Part shown: positions 27,481 through 38,945 of the stretch, one piece after another
Numbering within the stretch: the stretch's first letter is position 1
Layout: each line of letters starts with the position of its first letter
IMG/VR virus record: IMGVR_UViG_3300032820_000031
Span: 1-39,772 of that record
Length of the DNA stretch: 39,772 nucleotides
Source: a virus
Direction: 5' to 3' (one strand)
Program-made: the position numbers and the translations under genes
Notes under the pieces: model-generated
Seen by the model: the letters and a program-made list of their open reading frames with translations, nothing else
What the model was told of the DNA's origin: nothing
The model's database searches: none

Positions 27481-27492
27481 CAGACCGACACC

Positions 27493-27793
27493 GGGACACG
27501 GACAAACCCTAAAGGGTTTTGTCCTGTCCGTCCCGCATAGTGTTTTTTGTCCATTTTATGTCCCGTTTATGTCCCGCAAAAATGTCCCGCTATCCAATTT
27601 TGTGTTCAGGCAAGCTGACAAGACGCCCGTCATAAATGATTTTTCCTTTGTTTTTCAATCCGTTAAGTGCCCTATTAAAACTTTTTCGCACCGTTCCTTC
27701 GCTTACCTTATTTTCACCGTCAATGTCCCGCTGGGCTGTCCCGTCATGTCCCGCTTGACGGTAATACCAGGGTCTGATTTCGTCCTGCGGGAC
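27493..27793 (-). repeat. Cluster of GGGAC motifs around the 3' end of the primase-helicase gene
   Basis: GTCCC on the plus strand begins at 27530, 27560, 27571, 27584, 27725, 27738 and 27748, and GGGAC at 27493 and 27789. Most lie at 10-13 bp steps, near one helical turn. Nine copies in 300 bases compares with less than one expected. The cluster extends into coding sequence (residues of about 620-635), so the motif is preserved in the gene. Initiator-type iterons or primase sites are possible. Confidence 0.7.
27500..27524. promoter_or_regulatory. Hairpin in the leader of the 180-aa gene
   Basis: GGACAAACCC (27500-27509) is complementary to GGGTTTTGTCC (27514-27524) with one bulged base, leaving a short loop. 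No run of T follows in the leftward direction, so it looks like an attenuator, an operator or part of the GGGAC array and not like a terminator. Confidence 0.5.
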
Positions 27794-29611
27794 ATGGTCC
27801 GAGACAATGATTTTCGCCCCGCCGGGGAACTCCATATAGCCCTGTCGCTTTGTTCTGTAATCGCCAATAAAGATATTTCGTATGATATCCATTGCCATTT
27901 GTTCGCTGGGTGTAAGGCGCCGATTGTCGTTTGCCTCTATGTCAACCGGCTTAACGACACATGACGTTGTGGGCTTGCCTCGAGCGTCAATGCCGACCTC
28001 GATCACCTCTAATGAGAAGCCCATCTCCTGGCCCAGCTCGAGGTCACGCTGCTTTTTAACCTTAGCCACTGACGACTTCTCGGTTATCTTTTCCAGCTCG
28101 ATCTCAGTAGTCGTAGCTGCCGGTAACGAGCTGTGCCCTCTCGCTCCGGCTGCCTTGCTCTTGCCGCTGTGATGGACAACCATTGTATGTGCCCCGGTAG
28201 CAAAACGTATCGTATCGATAGTCGCAATGGTCGCTGTCATTGCCTCTGGTGCGTTTTCATTACCTGACGCCATAACCCTGGACAGTGTATCGATAACCAC
28301 CAGCCGAACCGGCATGTCATACTTTTTCTGGATAATGTCGCATGCTTCGATAATTCTCTCCACATCGCCCCGGGCATCCATCAAGTTAACAGCTGCCGGT
28401 ATGATGGCTAACGGTGCGTCTTCTATCTGGTGCTTCAATTGGAATGCTTTGATGCGTTTTCTGATACTGCCGCCGCCTTCTGCAGCCACATAACATACAG
28501 CGCCCTGGGCAACCTCTCGGCCCATGTACTCCCTGCCGAGTGCCACATGCACAGCCAGGTCTAGTGTATAAAACGTCTTTCCGACATTAGTCTCGCCGTA
28601 TACCACCGACATCTCGCCGTCTGTCAGCAGCCCCTCGACAAAGTCAAACGGCGGATCGACATCGCCCAGCTGGTCCCAAAACTCCAGAGGCAGCGGCAGT
28701 TCTGCCGGGTCGCTCTTTTCATAGCTTGTTGTAAAGTCAGGTGTATTTAACGGTTCGCCTCGAGCCAGCATCCCGCTGATCTTGGTGTGTGTCGAATGGA
28801 TCTTCGCCATCATCATCTGCTTGCCGCGGTTATCCTGCTCAAGCGTCTTGCCGTCACGCTCTAAAACCCGAGGCCTATAATGTTCCCATGCCCGGTTCGC
28901 CCATATGAGCTTATTGTCTACGTTGCCAGCTTCTCGTGCCAGCTCCATTCCAATCCAAAACACCACCCGCGACATAAACTCTTCCCGCCCGTTGGAAATA
29001 GGCTTCATGCCAAGAAGCCACTCGGGCAGGCTGCTGGGTGCATCTTCTATATTAACGTCTTGCTTTTCGACTGATGCTGTCTGCACCCGCGCCAGTAACT
29101 TAGCAGGCATCTTCCTTACTTTTGGCTTGTCAGCTAGGCTGCCTGCCTCACCCCAGGTGTAAGGCGTACCGTCAGCGTTGACCGAAGGCGGAACCATTGC
29201 CGCCCCGCCAATGCCTTTTATATCTATTTCTTTTGCTAATTTGCTGTTGCTGTTTCCGATGGTTTCGCTTGACGTAAAGTAAACGTGTATCCCGCCGCTG
29301 GCTGACTTGACTGTAATGTCAGTAGCTAGATCGATGCCTGACTCCAAACAGATTTCAGCAAACGCCTCAGCGACATCAGCTCCTTTATATATGTCAGCGT
29401 CCAAGACAAACGTGTCGTTGTAGCCGGTGATGATTGCCAGGTTGTCTGTCGGGTAATGCTGCCAGTGACTAATGACGGTTTGCTCGGTCCATTCTTTAAG
29501 CTGCCATCCTGTTCCTCGAGGCCGTTTGCTTTTAGGCCAGCAAGGTGTAATGCGGTAGCCTGCCGCCATCAGTTCCAATGCTGCCTGGCAGAAGTGATTA
29601 CTCGAGTCCAT
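27590..29611 (-). CDS. Prim-pol primase with helicase domain
   Basis: The 673-aa product combines an archaeo-eukaryotic-type primase-polymerase with a RecA-like helicase. The N-terminal domain shows PCWPKSKRP, then FVLDAD with Asp71 and Asp73, SASGGIHVYF (103-112) and KGIGGAAMVPPS (132-143), the bifunctional primase/polymerase pattern. The helicase carries Walker A GETNVGKT (about 339-346) and LVVID (about 437-441), RepA/replicative type. The last 120 residues look like a winged helix. It would unwind and prime viral DNA; no separate viral DNA polymerase is seen, so the host polymerase is likely used. GGGAC repeats lie in its 3' end. Confidence 0.85.
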   Translation of the reverse strand: MDSSNHFCQAALELMAAGYRITPCWPKSKRPRGTGWQLKEWTEQTVISHWQHYPTDNLAIITGYNDTFVLDADIYKGADVAEAFAEICLESGIDLATDITVKSASGGIHVYFTSSETIGNSNSKLAKEIDIKGIGGAAMVPPSVNADGTPYTWGEAGSLADKPKVRKMPAKLLARVQTASVEKQDVNIEDAPSSLPEWLLGMKPISNGREEFMSRVVFWIGMELAREAGNVDNKLIWANRAWEHYRPRVLERDGKTLEQDNRGKQMMMAKIHSTHTKISGMLARGEPLNTPDFTTSYEKSDPAELPLPLEFWDQLGDVDPPFDFVEGLLTDGEMSVVYGETNVGKTFYTLDLAVHVALGREYMGREVAQGAVCYVAAEGGGSIRKRIKAFQLKHQIEDAPLAIIPAAVNLMDARGDVERIIEACDIIQKKYDMPVRLVVIDTLSRVMASGNENAPEAMTATIATIDTIRFATGAHTMVVHHSGKSKAAGARGHSSLPAATTTEIELEKITEKSSVAKVKKQRDLELGQEMGFSLEVIEVGIDARGKPTTSCVVKPVDIEANDNRRLTPSEQMAMDIIRNIFIGDYRTKRQGYMEFPGGAKIIVSDHVPQDEIRPWYYRQAGHDGTAQRDIDGENKVSEGTVRKSFNRALNGLKNKGKIIYDGRLVSLPEHKIG

Positions 29612-35947: not shown

Positions 35948-36133
35948 ATGCCTAAATTAATACCTGTCAGGGAAGTGATGCAGCGCCTGGATATCAGCAA
36001 GTCAACTTTATACAGACACGTTGCGAAGGGGGAGCTGCCCAAGATCCATACACGCTGCAACAAATCATTCTTTCTGATGGAAGAGTACAACCGGTATGAA
36101 GAAACCGGTGATTGGAGACTAGCCAAGAATTAA
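35948..36133 (+). CDS. AlpA-like excisionase / MerR-type HTH
   Basis: The 61-aa product PKLIPVREVMQRLDISKSTLYRHVAKGELP is the AlpA/excisionase HTH pattern, in which the helix-turn-helix is followed by a wing. A clear AGGAG Shine-Dalgarno precedes the ATG. The end of the gene overlaps the end of the convergent integrase gene by 15 bases. Such proteins direct integrase towards excision and bend DNA in the attachment region. It may also act as a transcription regulator. Confidence 0.8.
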   Translation: MPKLIPVREVMQRLDISKSTLYRHVAKGELPKIHTRCNKSFFLMEEYNRYEETGDWRLAKN

Positions 36134-37498
36134 CTTGGCGTAGTCTTCCACAAGTACCTTTCTCATGTCCCAACGAACATCCCGGTCATAGGCTCTTCTC
36201 ACCTTACCGCCGTCTAGTGTGTGGTCTAACTGCAGCTCTATAGCATCGTGCGAGTATTTGCCGTTTCCTGGGTTGTTGGGATCTTGCTGTGCCTCGGCCC
36301 AGGTTTGAAACGTGCTGCGGTTTGTGCCATGCGGCGTAGCTGGGTAACCTTCGACACCCATGCCGAGTGGACAGAAACGATGCAGCGCAGCTGATACTCG
36401 CTCATTCTGTATTGGGTTAACACCAGTAAAATCTTCGGCAGAGATTCCGTTTCTTTTAGATGCGCCGAGCTTTTTGTTTCTGCCAGCTGGGTCAGCTGCA
36501 AAAATATAGTCGTCGTCATCTACACCCTCATGGTCTTTAATGTCGTTGCGTTGACGGTAAGCCAACAACCATTCGGCTACAACCTTGGGCACTGGCATTT
36601 GATAATCGTGCAGGCGTTTTTTGTTCACCTTCATACGAGACTTTGGAATTGTCCAGATGACATTATCCATATCGCTAAAGTCGATCTCTTTCCATTTGCC
36701 TGTCACGATTTCTTTAAGGCGCTTATGCAGCAATGGACCGATCTTACAAGCTAACCTGTCACGCTCTTTCATCTTGAGGGCGCGAGGATCGGTGTCCATT
36801 CGCTTGTACCAATCCTGCAATGCAGCAATAGACAAGCTGCCTTCGGGCTGTTCAACGTGAGCCTCTTTCAAAGGCATATGATTTTCACAAACTTTCTTTA
36901 ACAGCTTAGGAACATCCCAGGAGTAATTGAACCTGGCTTCGCCAAATAATAGAAACGCTTTGATTTGCGTAATCCATTTGTCAGCCGATGCTGTGTGCCA
37001 AAATTCTTTGATGACTTCTGCCAGGTCGTCAGAGTCAATGTCAGCAAAAGGGGTTTTATGTATTTTCTCGCAGCGTTCTAGGAGCGTTTTTTTGTACTGA
37101 TTAAACGTTACCGGTGCCACTTCTATTGGCTGACCGTCGAGCGTATTGTCGTCAGTCATGCGGCACAGAAAAATTTTTATAACCTCGAGAGTAGTCATCG
37201 CACGTTCTGCTTTTTTTAATCTGTGCTTGGCTACGACGACGCCTTCGTGAACAGCTCGTTTTAGTTTTAAAGTTTCGCCAATCGCATCGTCTAGCGAAAC
37301 AGTTGGGAAGCTGCCAAGACCGATTGGCTTGTCCTTACCATTATAACGCTGCAGGAACACCCAGCTCATGGCGCCTGATTTACGCACATTTATTTTTAGG
37401 TTTGGGTAGCCGGTGCCGAATCGTATACCGCCTTTCGACGCCAATACTTTTTTGTGCTTAGGCAGTTTTGAGATTTGAAACTCGGTTAATGTTTTCAT
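36119..37498 (-). CDS. int: Tyrosine integrase (P4-type)
   Basis: The 459-aa product has the N-terminal DUF4102-type arm-binding fold (ISKLPKHKKVLASKGGIRFG, GLGSFPTVSLDDAI), core-binding helices and a C-terminal catalytic domain. Arg260 (HKRLKEIV) and the Lys of SRMKV are present. The box II stretch is HGTNRSTFQTW (His390), the later His is LDHT (His426) and the nucleophile is Tyr437 in RRAYDRD. In HGTNR the usual Arg at His+3 is at His+4, so the alignment of box II is slightly unusual. It is preceded by a 63-aa gene with one base between and follows a GGAGAG Shine-Dalgarno. It integrates the phage into a bacterial site. Confidence 0.9.
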   Translation of the reverse strand: MKTLTEFQISKLPKHKKVLASKGGIRFGTGYPNLKINVRKSGAMSWVFLQRYNGKDKPIGLGSFPTVSLDDAIGETLKLKRAVHEGVVVAKHRLKKAERAMTTLEVIKIFLCRMTDDNTLDGQPIEVAPVTFNQYKKTLLERCEKIHKTPFADIDSDDLAEVIKEFWHTASADKWITQIKAFLLFGEARFNYSWDVPKLLKKVCENHMPLKEAHVEQPEGSLSIAALQDWYKRMDTDPRALKMKERDRLACKIGPLLHKRLKEIVTGKWKEIDFSDMDNVIWTIPKSRMKVNKKRLHDYQMPVPKVVAEWLLAYRQRNDIKDHEGVDDDDYIFAADPAGRNKKLGASKRNGISAEDFTGVNPIQNERVSAALHRFCPLGMGVEGYPATPHGTNRSTFQTWAEAQQDPNNPGNGKYSHDAIELQLDHTLDGGKVRRAYDRDVRWDMRKVLVEDYAKLILG

Positions 37499-37499
37499 T

Positions 37500-37691
37500 C
37501 TAGCTCTCCATATCTAAATTTTTGAGAGCCTGTTTTTTGGCCCGTTCAATTTCAAACTCGGAAAGATTACCCGACGCTTCAATCATCTCAGCTGTTTCTT
37601 TAGCTGAAGCTGCCTTGTCTTCATCGTCCATACCAATGGCTAGTGTCAGCGCCAAGACCAATGCTTCATAATCGTTTGTAAGTTTTTTCAT
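37500..37691 (-). CDS. Small acidic protein upstream of the integrase
   Basis: The 63-aa helical product (NDYEALVLALTLAIGMDDEDKAASAKETAEMIEASGNLSEFEIERAKKQAL) is acidic and one base before the integrase start, so it is translated with it. The ribosome-binding leader GGGAGCAAACA is identical to that of the next upstream gene. No family is recognised; a regulator or directionality partner is a guess from the context. Confidence 0.6.
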   Translation of the reverse strand: MKKLTNDYEALVLALTLAIGMDDEDKAASAKETAEMIEASGNLSEFEIERAKKQALKNLDMES

Positions 37692-37731: not shown

Positions 37732-38031
37732 TTAGCCAACCTTACTTACTCGGTCTACATCGCAATGCTTTGCGTAAAATGCATCATCCAGCCAAACTTC
37801 ATATGGCACAAAAGAAATTTCGTATTCGGTCACTGGCTTTGACTTACCGCCAAATACGTTCTCAATGATTTGCACTGTGTAGGCTTCATAGCCGCCCTCA
37901 CATACGCCCTTCTTGATAACGTGACCAATGAGATAGCTATCTGCGCGGTCAGGTGTAGGTGCGAAGTGGTAGGCTTTAATTACATCGCCAACATTGGCTA
38001 CATTGCTGTGATTGATTTCTGTATGTGACAT
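37732..38031 (-). CDS. Small protein at the head of the integrase operon, unknown
   Basis: The ATG at 38029-38031 is used because GGGAGCAAACA precedes it exactly as in the 63-aa gene; an upstream in-frame ATG lacks that site. The 99-aa product (ANVGDVIKAYHFAPTPDRADSYLIGHVIKKGVCEGGYEAYTVQIIENVFGGK) reads like a small beta-barrel/SH3-like fold with an acidic tail. No family is recognised. Confidence 0.65.
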   Translation of the reverse strand: MSHTEINHSNVANVGDVIKAYHFAPTPDRADSYLIGHVIKKGVCEGGYEAYTVQIIENVFGGKSKPVTEYEISFVPYEVWLDDAFYAKHCDVDRVSKVG

Positions 38032-38073
38032 TGTTTGCTCCCGGTTAAAATGTGTCTGTGTCTTATACATATA

Positions 38074-38102
38074 TATGTAGGAACTCGGGATTGTATTGTC
38101 AA
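38074..38102 (-). promoter_or_regulatory. Leftward promoter of the integrase operon
   Basis: On the minus strand TTGACA and TACATA are separated by 17 bases, followed by TATATGTA. This is a near-consensus sigma70 promoter. CCCGAG occurs in the spacer, as in the promoter at 31827-31856. The promoter lies beside the TTGTATGACTTG repeats. Confidence 0.75.
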
Positions 38103-38107
38103 GGCTG

Positions 38108-38131
38108 TTGTATGACTTGTTGTATGACTTG
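38108..38131 (+). repeat. Perfect 12-bp tandem repeat TTGTATGACTTG, left pair
   Basis: Two head-to-tail perfect copies of TTGTATGACTTG. The pair is matched by another pair at 38349-38372, in the same orientation, 241 bp away, with the GGGAC arrays in between. This flanking layout is that of arm-type sites. Confidence 0.9.
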
Positions 38132-38150
38132 AATCGATTTTTGGTCTTTA

Positions 38151-38272
38151 TTGGGACATCCTGGGACGCCCTGGGACAGCAACAAGTTACAAAGATGGCG
38201 GGATTAATTCAATGTTTTCAAGGGGTTGGGACTTGCTGGGACGGTTTGGGACAACATAGGACAAAATAGAAC
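38151..38272 (+). repeat. Helically phased TGGGAC iteron arrays
   Basis: TTGGGAC or CTGGGAC starts at 38151, 38161 and 38171, and again at 38226, 38236 and 38246, continued by ATAGGAC (38256) and ATAGAAC (38266). Every step within an array is exactly 10 bp, so all sites face the same side of the helix. The arrays are separated by 48 bases (38178-38225) that hold no repeat. Candidate uses are integrase or excisionase arm sites and initiator iterons. Confidence 0.9.
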
Positions 38273-38348
38273 AACGTCCGATTACGGTACATCGCTAAGT
38301 TTAAAAACGTAATAAAAACAAATAGTTACACATATGCGATATAGTGCG

Positions 38349-38372
38349 TTGTATGACTTGTTGTCTGATTAT
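38349..38372 (+). repeat. 12-bp repeat pair TTGTATGACTTG, right pair (second copy decayed)
   Basis: TTGTATGACTTG (38349-38360) is perfect, and TTGTCTGATTAT (38361-38372) is a diverged copy that runs into the end of the 49-aa gene. See the left pair at 38108-38131. The stretch 38273-38348 between the arrays and this pair is AT-rich and holds no gene that I can support. Confidence 0.75.
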
Positions 38373-38518
38373 TTTTTATCGTTGTAGAGGATAAAGAGCT
38401 GGGCAACCTTCTGTTCGATCACCTGGATGCGAGTATACATCTGAGCCAAAACTATAACAAGCGTTATGCCTGACAGGAAGATAGGCCATCCTGCAGAGAT
38501 CCAAGCAGTTAAATCCAT
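38369..38518 (-). CDS. 49-aa membrane microprotein at the end of the lysis genes
   Basis: Starting at the ATG at 38516-38518 after AAGGGTAAG, the product MDLTAWISAGWPIFLSGITL... has one hydrophobic span (about residues 8-24) and a charged helical tail (YTRIQVIEQKVAQLFILYNDKK). It follows the lysozyme stop by four bases. The layout suits a spanin, an antiholin or a small holin, but no family is recognised; there is no lipoprotein partner in view. Confidence 0.65.
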   Translation of the reverse strand: MDLTAWISAGWPIFLSGITLVIVLAQMYTRIQVIEQKVAQLFILYNDKK

Positions 38519-38522
38519 CAGC

Positions 38523-38945
38523 TTACCCTTTCTTTATAAGCTCGTAGTTTCGTTTGCTGCGATTAGGCAGCTGCTTGGCATATTGACTATCCATCAACTC
38601 TTCCGCTGCAGCTGCATACGCTTCCGCATTATCGGCTGTTTCCATCCCCCGTAAGAACAAGACAAATTTCGCCAGCCTCGAGGCTCCCAGGTTAAACATT
38701 AAATCTATCATTACACTTTGACGATTTTCGCTCAGGCGTGTCCACCAGGGGCACAGCCGGTCCAGCTCTTCGACGCATACCTCTATGTCGTTTTCTAGCA
38801 TAAACATTGCTTCGTCTTCACTGACTCCCCGGCTGTCTAAGTTTCTTCCGACCGCTATGCTCAACGCACCAGCGGTACAGTGATATGGTTTAAGACTTAG
38901 GCCTTCGTTGTCGATGAGCATTTTTTTCACCGCTTTTTTGTTCAT
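38523..38945 (-). CDS. GH24-type lysozyme (endolysin)
   Basis: The 140-aa product has the GH24 pattern. Glu14 in LIDNEGLSLKPYHC is followed by Cys23 in place of the usual Asp and by GALSIAVGRNLDSRGVSEDEA, where Ser29 replaces the usual Thr. LSENRQSVMIDLMFNLGASRLAKF follows, and the C-terminus is typical. The family cleaves peptidoglycan. The Cys at the Asp position is also seen in lambda-like relatives, so activity is plausible. No signal peptide is evident, so a holin is needed for export. It overlaps the holin gene by four bases (ATGA). Confidence 0.8.
   Translation of the reverse strand: MNKKAVKKMLIDNEGLSLKPYHCTAGALSIAVGRNLDSRGVSEDEAMFMLENDIEVCVEELDRLCPWWTRLSENRQSVMIDLMFNLGASRLAKFVLFLRGMETADNAEAYAAAAEELMDSQYAKQLPNRSKRNYELIKKG

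Follow-up and report, generated by a model that had tools for sequence, protein, structure and literature searches.

Phased TGGGAC repeats upstream of a phage integrase gene: a candidate attachment site, with a likely origin elsewhere in the same genome

In phages, the attachment site (attP) usually has the lysis genes on one side and the integrase operon on the other. In P4-type attP, where the integrase carries the N-terminal Arm-DNA-bind_3 domain (PF13356), the DNA upstream of the gene for it contains phased direct repeats, all on the same strand, and their commoner cores are GGTAAC, TGGGGC and GGTATC. The attL of the Escherichia coli prophage CP4-57 (ssrA, intA) has GGCCCA/TGGGCC repeats about 12 bp apart between the tmRNA end and the integrase. 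In the attL of the KplE1 prophage (IntS, TorI), which adjoins a tRNA gene, arm-type sites with a consensus containing TAAA are interleaved with excisionase sites upstream of the integrase, and the integrase and excisionase sites overlap the integrase promoter (PMC2951348). Short direct repeats also cluster as iterons at the origins 3' of initiator helicases, such as SaPI Rep and SCCmec Cch2 (PMC7581432), and inside lambda O-like initiator genes.

We compared these systems with a phage genome from IMG/VR (record IMGVR_UViG_3300032820_000031, 39,772 nucleotides, hereafter the window), in which a repeat region at 38.1–38.4 kb was investigated. It resembles P4-type attP in the integrase domain and in having phased direct repeats, confined to one strand, ahead of the integrase gene, but its first TGGGAC lies 654 bp from the integrase start, the site is not at a tRNA end, and its TGGGAC core is not one of the commoner ones. 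CP4-57 attL is similar in its repeats before the integrase, but has another core, fewer copies and a tmRNA neighbor; the KplE1 site is similar in its interleaved sites and differs in its TAAA-containing consensus and its tRNA gene. The position of the SaPI and SCCmec iterons is matched by another window cluster at 27.5 kb, whereas the 38-kb array is away from the helicase and without inverted copies. Four of the O-like initiator genes carry the same arrangement of three direct TGGGAC copies, about 50 bp and three more, but there the arrays are intragenic with 11-bp steps, while that of the window is intergenic with 10-bp steps.

The phage is probably of marine origin. Its contig ends (1–388 and 39385–39772) overlap over 388 bp with 88% identity, so that a circular map and a nearly complete genome are probable; strain variants may have closed the circle, or the overlap may be a duplication that has diverged. 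No close relative of the integrase was found in IMG/VR or in 84,980 genomes, nor any DNA relative of 36.0–39.8 kb among phages, while a search for portal relatives gave an identical fragment of 7.5 kb and two that were distant. L466, from a different record, is an identical fragment. No Rfam family matched 27.0–39.8 kb. The integrase matched Arm-DNA-bind_3 over the cut-off (E 4e-7) and a PHROG integrase (E 5e-12), and its match to Phage_integrase was below the cut-off (E 0.0015). Its catalytic domain reads HGTNR, where related integrases usually have HGFR. Near the integrase, no other intergenic stretch of appreciable size has repeats apart from the 38-kb array, which is located between the lysis genes (lysozyme at 38523) and the leftward integrase operon (table 1).

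Table 1. Repeats and genes considered in the window
Feature	Position	Strand	Remark
First phased array, three TGGGAC in 10-bp steps (38152, 38162, 38172)	38152..38177	+	Proposed integrase arm-type sites
Second phased array, three TGGGAC in 10-bp steps (38227, 38237, 38247)	38227..38252	+	
Two decayed copies, TAGGAC (38257) and TAGAAC (38267), 10-bp phase kept	38257..38272	+	
Unique spacer between arrays, 49 bp	38178..38226		Candidate core
TTGTATGACTTG twice in tandem, left side, exact at 38108 and 38120	38108..38131	+	Putative sites of a second protein (excisionase or integrase)
TTGTATGACTTG, right side, exact at 38349, decayed copy TTGTCTGATTAT at 38361	38349..38372	+	
Most A+T-rich 40 bp of the region, 78% A+T	38300..38339		
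Tyrosine recombinase, N-terminal Arm-DNA-bind_3, divergent catalytic domain	36119..37498	-	
AlpA/HTH_17-like protein	35948..36133	+	Candidate excisionase
63-aa ORF between array and integrase	37500..37691	-	No family
112-aa ORF between array and integrase	37732..38070	-	No family
Prim-Pol + AAA_25 (RepA-like) primase-helicase	27590..29611	-	Presumed replication initiator
GGGACA/GGACA repeats in both orientations, CCCTTTAGGG palindrome at 27507–27516	27488..27592		Presumed origin

A sequence-only reading of this DNA had described TGGGAC in exact 10-bp steps, three copies and then three plus two decayed ones, and these positions were confirmed, all on the plus strand. We found that TGGGAC was the most clustered 6-mer of the whole window in an unbiased scan. 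With up to three mismatches, the TGGGAC triplet at 10-bp steps occurred 5 times against 0.01 expected from shuffles, and all five near-matches in the window fell in the 38-kb array, where six copies were direct and none inverted. The proposal that the sites face the same side of the DNA holds roughly, since at 10.5 bp per turn the six exact sites lie at about -34 to +51 degrees. The absence of a gene was borne out as well (no ORF of at least 60 aa between 38070 and 38466), as was the distance of about 600 bases from the integrase start at 37498. Two details needed correction: the spacer given as 48 bases measures 49, and of the paired 12-bp repeats on both sides, the left pair is exact and the right pair consists of one exact and one decayed copy. 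No core could be named from inverted core-type repeats, those in the region being too weak.

We consider it moderately probable that 38.1–38.4 kb is the attP of this phage, with the TGGGAC arrays as arm-type sites of the integrase. The array offers repeated phased sites on one strand, and a tyrosine integrase with an arm-binding domain is encoded 654 bp away. In the proposed arrangement, the Arm-DNA-bind_3 domains of adjacent integrase protomers would occupy the TGGGAC copies, one for each helical turn and all on the same DNA face, and the catalytic domains would be delivered to a nearby core, which may lie in the 49-bp spacer or in the A+T-rich DNA on the right of it. The TTGTATGACTTG sites would probably be bound by a second factor, for example the AlpA-like excisionase. 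We infer both this assignment of proteins to the TGGGAC and TTGTATGACTTG sites and the location of the core. For a core at 38178–38225, the 49 bp between the arrays are tight compared with the roughly 20–130 bp from tRNA end to array in clear attachment sites. Most likely, the repeats represent, in well-preserved form, a site of an already known kind and not something new.

Phased TGGGAC arrays were also surveyed elsewhere. Three TGGGAC copies were found in 97 stretches of IMG/VR at 10-bp steps and in 93 at 11-bp steps, but in only 9 at 14-bp steps, and the reversed motif CAGGGT at 10 bp gave 33, several of them long tandem repeats. Helical phasing of the motif is therefore real and widespread. 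The arrays occur in two settings, replication origins and attachment sites. Adjoining genes were enriched in primase-helicases (AAA_25, Prim-Pol, VapE/DUF5906, DUF927-HTH_56). In 18 of 36 prim-pol loci an array lay within 600 bp downstream of the prim-pol gene, against 2.8 expected; many others overlapped the last 200 or so bases of that gene. Still others were intragenic in O-like initiator genes, where they follow immediately on the codons for an 'RWGW'-type helix-turn-helix. In six O-like initiator genes, two TGGGAC triplets stood about 50 bp apart; this direct 3-50-3 layout with 11-bp steps is nearly that of the window array and counts against attP.

The attachment-site class is smaller and has the order tRNA 3' end, 20–130 bp, array, often followed by an integrase. 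It comprises about 15 loci at which arrays adjoin tRNA 3' ends and/or integrases; 13 arrays were located about 20–130 bp from a tRNA 3' end, many of them beside an integrase. At L124 and L023 the integrase carries Arm-DNA-bind_3, as in the window (at L023 just below the cut-off), and L023 has same-strand TGGGAC sites in 10-bp steps on both sides of a gap beside the integrase. The link between TGGGACA repeats and P4-type integrase sites proposed in the sequence-only reading is thus confirmed by these loci, at least two of them with Arm-DNA-bind_3, but it is not exclusive, since origins carry the repeats too. ARAGORN tRNA-proximity statistics were weak, owing to the trimming of viral contigs; in the genome loci, 6 of 120 arrays lay within 400 bp of a tRNA against 2 expected. 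Taking all arrays together, closeness to an integrase only weakly exceeded the within-locus expectation, so the class rests on the inspected cases. Equating TGGGAC arrays with integrases was rejected, as a PF00589 integrase occurred in 13 of 50 contigs with 10-bp arrays, mostly far away; equating them with origins was likewise rejected, as arrays are also found at tRNA 3' ends beside integrases. Phased TGGGAC arrays alone cannot separate an origin from an attachment site; orientation, neighbors and palindrome do better.

Arm-DNA-bind_3 integrases were also sampled regardless of motif (71 independent matches), and at least three 7-mers in 10–12 bp steps within 400 bp upstream were counted as phased repeats. 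Such direct repeats were present at 13 of the 71 integrases and at none of the coding controls. Their cores vary, and 7 of the 13 loci have 10-bp steps. The sampled repeats lay within about 170 bp, against 654 bp from the integrase start in the window. TGGGAC occurred at 2 of 70 Arm-DNA-bind_3 loci, which is not above background, and is not the usual arm core of these integrases; no direct account of TGGGACA arm sites was found in the literature.

The sequence-only reading had left the 38-kb region as attP, origin or both. We found attP to be the best-supported of these because a better origin candidate exists at 27.5 kb. That GGGAC-core cluster (27493–27588, at the 3' end of the prim-pol gene) had been overlooked. 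It contains the second most clustered 6-mer of the window (CGGGAC/GGACA, 27.49–27.59 kb, directly 3' of the Prim-Pol/AAA_25 gene). In the inspected prim-pol/AAA_25 relatives, too, iterons cluster 3' of the helicase gene, with a different core in each lineage: CGTAACA, CGTACCA and GTATGA/GTAGGA in IMG/VR, TTTATAC and TTTGTAGT in Roseobacter phages, and GCGTGACA in Rhizobium phage 16-3. The top repeat occurred in both orientations in all 21 of 21 prim-pol-type regions, and a AACCCTTTAGGGTT-like palindrome was seen in the window, L220 and three Roseobacter phages, with looser forms in L218 and 16-3. In position, inverted copies and palindrome, the 27.5-kb cluster matches the origins of these relatives, and judged from its sequence it is likely to be the replication origin of the phage. 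Across the prim-pol/RepA-helicase phages (L218–L233 and L268–L272), the place of the cluster is common while the iteron core changes by lineage; it is possible that the core co-evolves with the C-terminal helix-turn-helix.

The main rival to attP is that the replication initiator has another binding region at 38 kb, serving as second origin, replication enhancer or titration site, which we regard as rather unlikely. Its candidate binder is the C-terminal domain of the prim-pol/AAA_25 helicase or an unrecognized initiator. The GGGAC core is common to the 38-kb array and the prim-pol 3' cluster, which rank first and second among the 6-mer clusters of the genome; in other genomes, TGGGAC arrays are found at primase-helicase 3' ends or inside initiator genes, and the 78% A+T stretch adjoins the 38-kb array. 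It stays the main rival because the strict 10-bp two-sided layout is found elsewhere mainly in replication settings, with none seen beside an integrase in IMG/VR. However, the 38-kb array lacks the inverted copies and the CCCTTTAGGG palindrome of the inspected prim-pol origins, no replication gene is beside it, and it is at least 8.5 kb from the prim-pol gene at whose 3' end iterons would be expected. Nor do its repeats lie in an initiator coding sequence as in O-like origins (no ORF of at least 60 aa in 38071–38465). The flanks differ, too, with C-GGGAC-A at most 27.5-kb copies and T-GGGAC followed by a variable base at 38 kb. Moreover, among the 13 records in which TGGGAC stands near an integrase, 12 had no second GGGAC cluster, so attachment-site arrays do not depend on an initiator with the same core. 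Both arm-type repeats at attP and origin iterons are already known as kinds of site; one core functionally shared between them would be new. That integrase arms and origin iterons share GGGAC so that cross-binding of initiator and integrase ties integration and excision to the start of replication is an improbable extension. The phage of L023 (G020) is maybe a second case with two GGGAC clusters.

It is also improbable, to a similar degree, that the array is not attP itself but controls the leftward integrase operon as a set of operators to which a phage repressor or the AlpA-like protein binds. The array does lie directly upstream of the two leftward ORFs and the integrase, and KplE1 gives a precedent that attP and operator need not exclude each other (PMC2951348). 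On the other hand, a search for a minus-strand promoter next to the array gave none convincing, although this is a weak test. Repressors do not usually bind to phased arrays of 6 to 8 direct sites.

Our confidence in attP is kept moderate because TGGGAC is a rare arm core, the distance of 654 bp is long, the strict 10-bp two-sided layout is found elsewhere mainly in replication settings, GGGAC is shared with the 27.5-kb origin-type cluster, and no attB or prophage was found. The attB search in 142 and 369 genomes of two bacterial classes gave nothing beyond matches of a chance-like kind, A-rich or in coding sequence, of which none was at a tRNA, and neither a prophage junction nor a prophage relative was found. 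If the region is attP, it provides an arm-site sequence that can be tested for a divergent integrase of the P4 type, from a phage without known close relatives, and the likely origin (27.5 kb) and the attachment site (38.2 kb) of one phage would both be marked by repeats of the same core.

Two further loci deserve mention. In L270 (MW202711, 31765–31900), whose portal protein is related to that of the window, nine GGGACA copies lie between genes, in a region that resembles an origin and is about 1.6 kb away from the repA-like gene. At L463, a TGGTTGC triplet in 11-bp steps adjoins an Arm-DNA-bind_3 integrase and four TGGGAC copies lie beyond a tRNA-like end, possibly representing two nested attachment sites.
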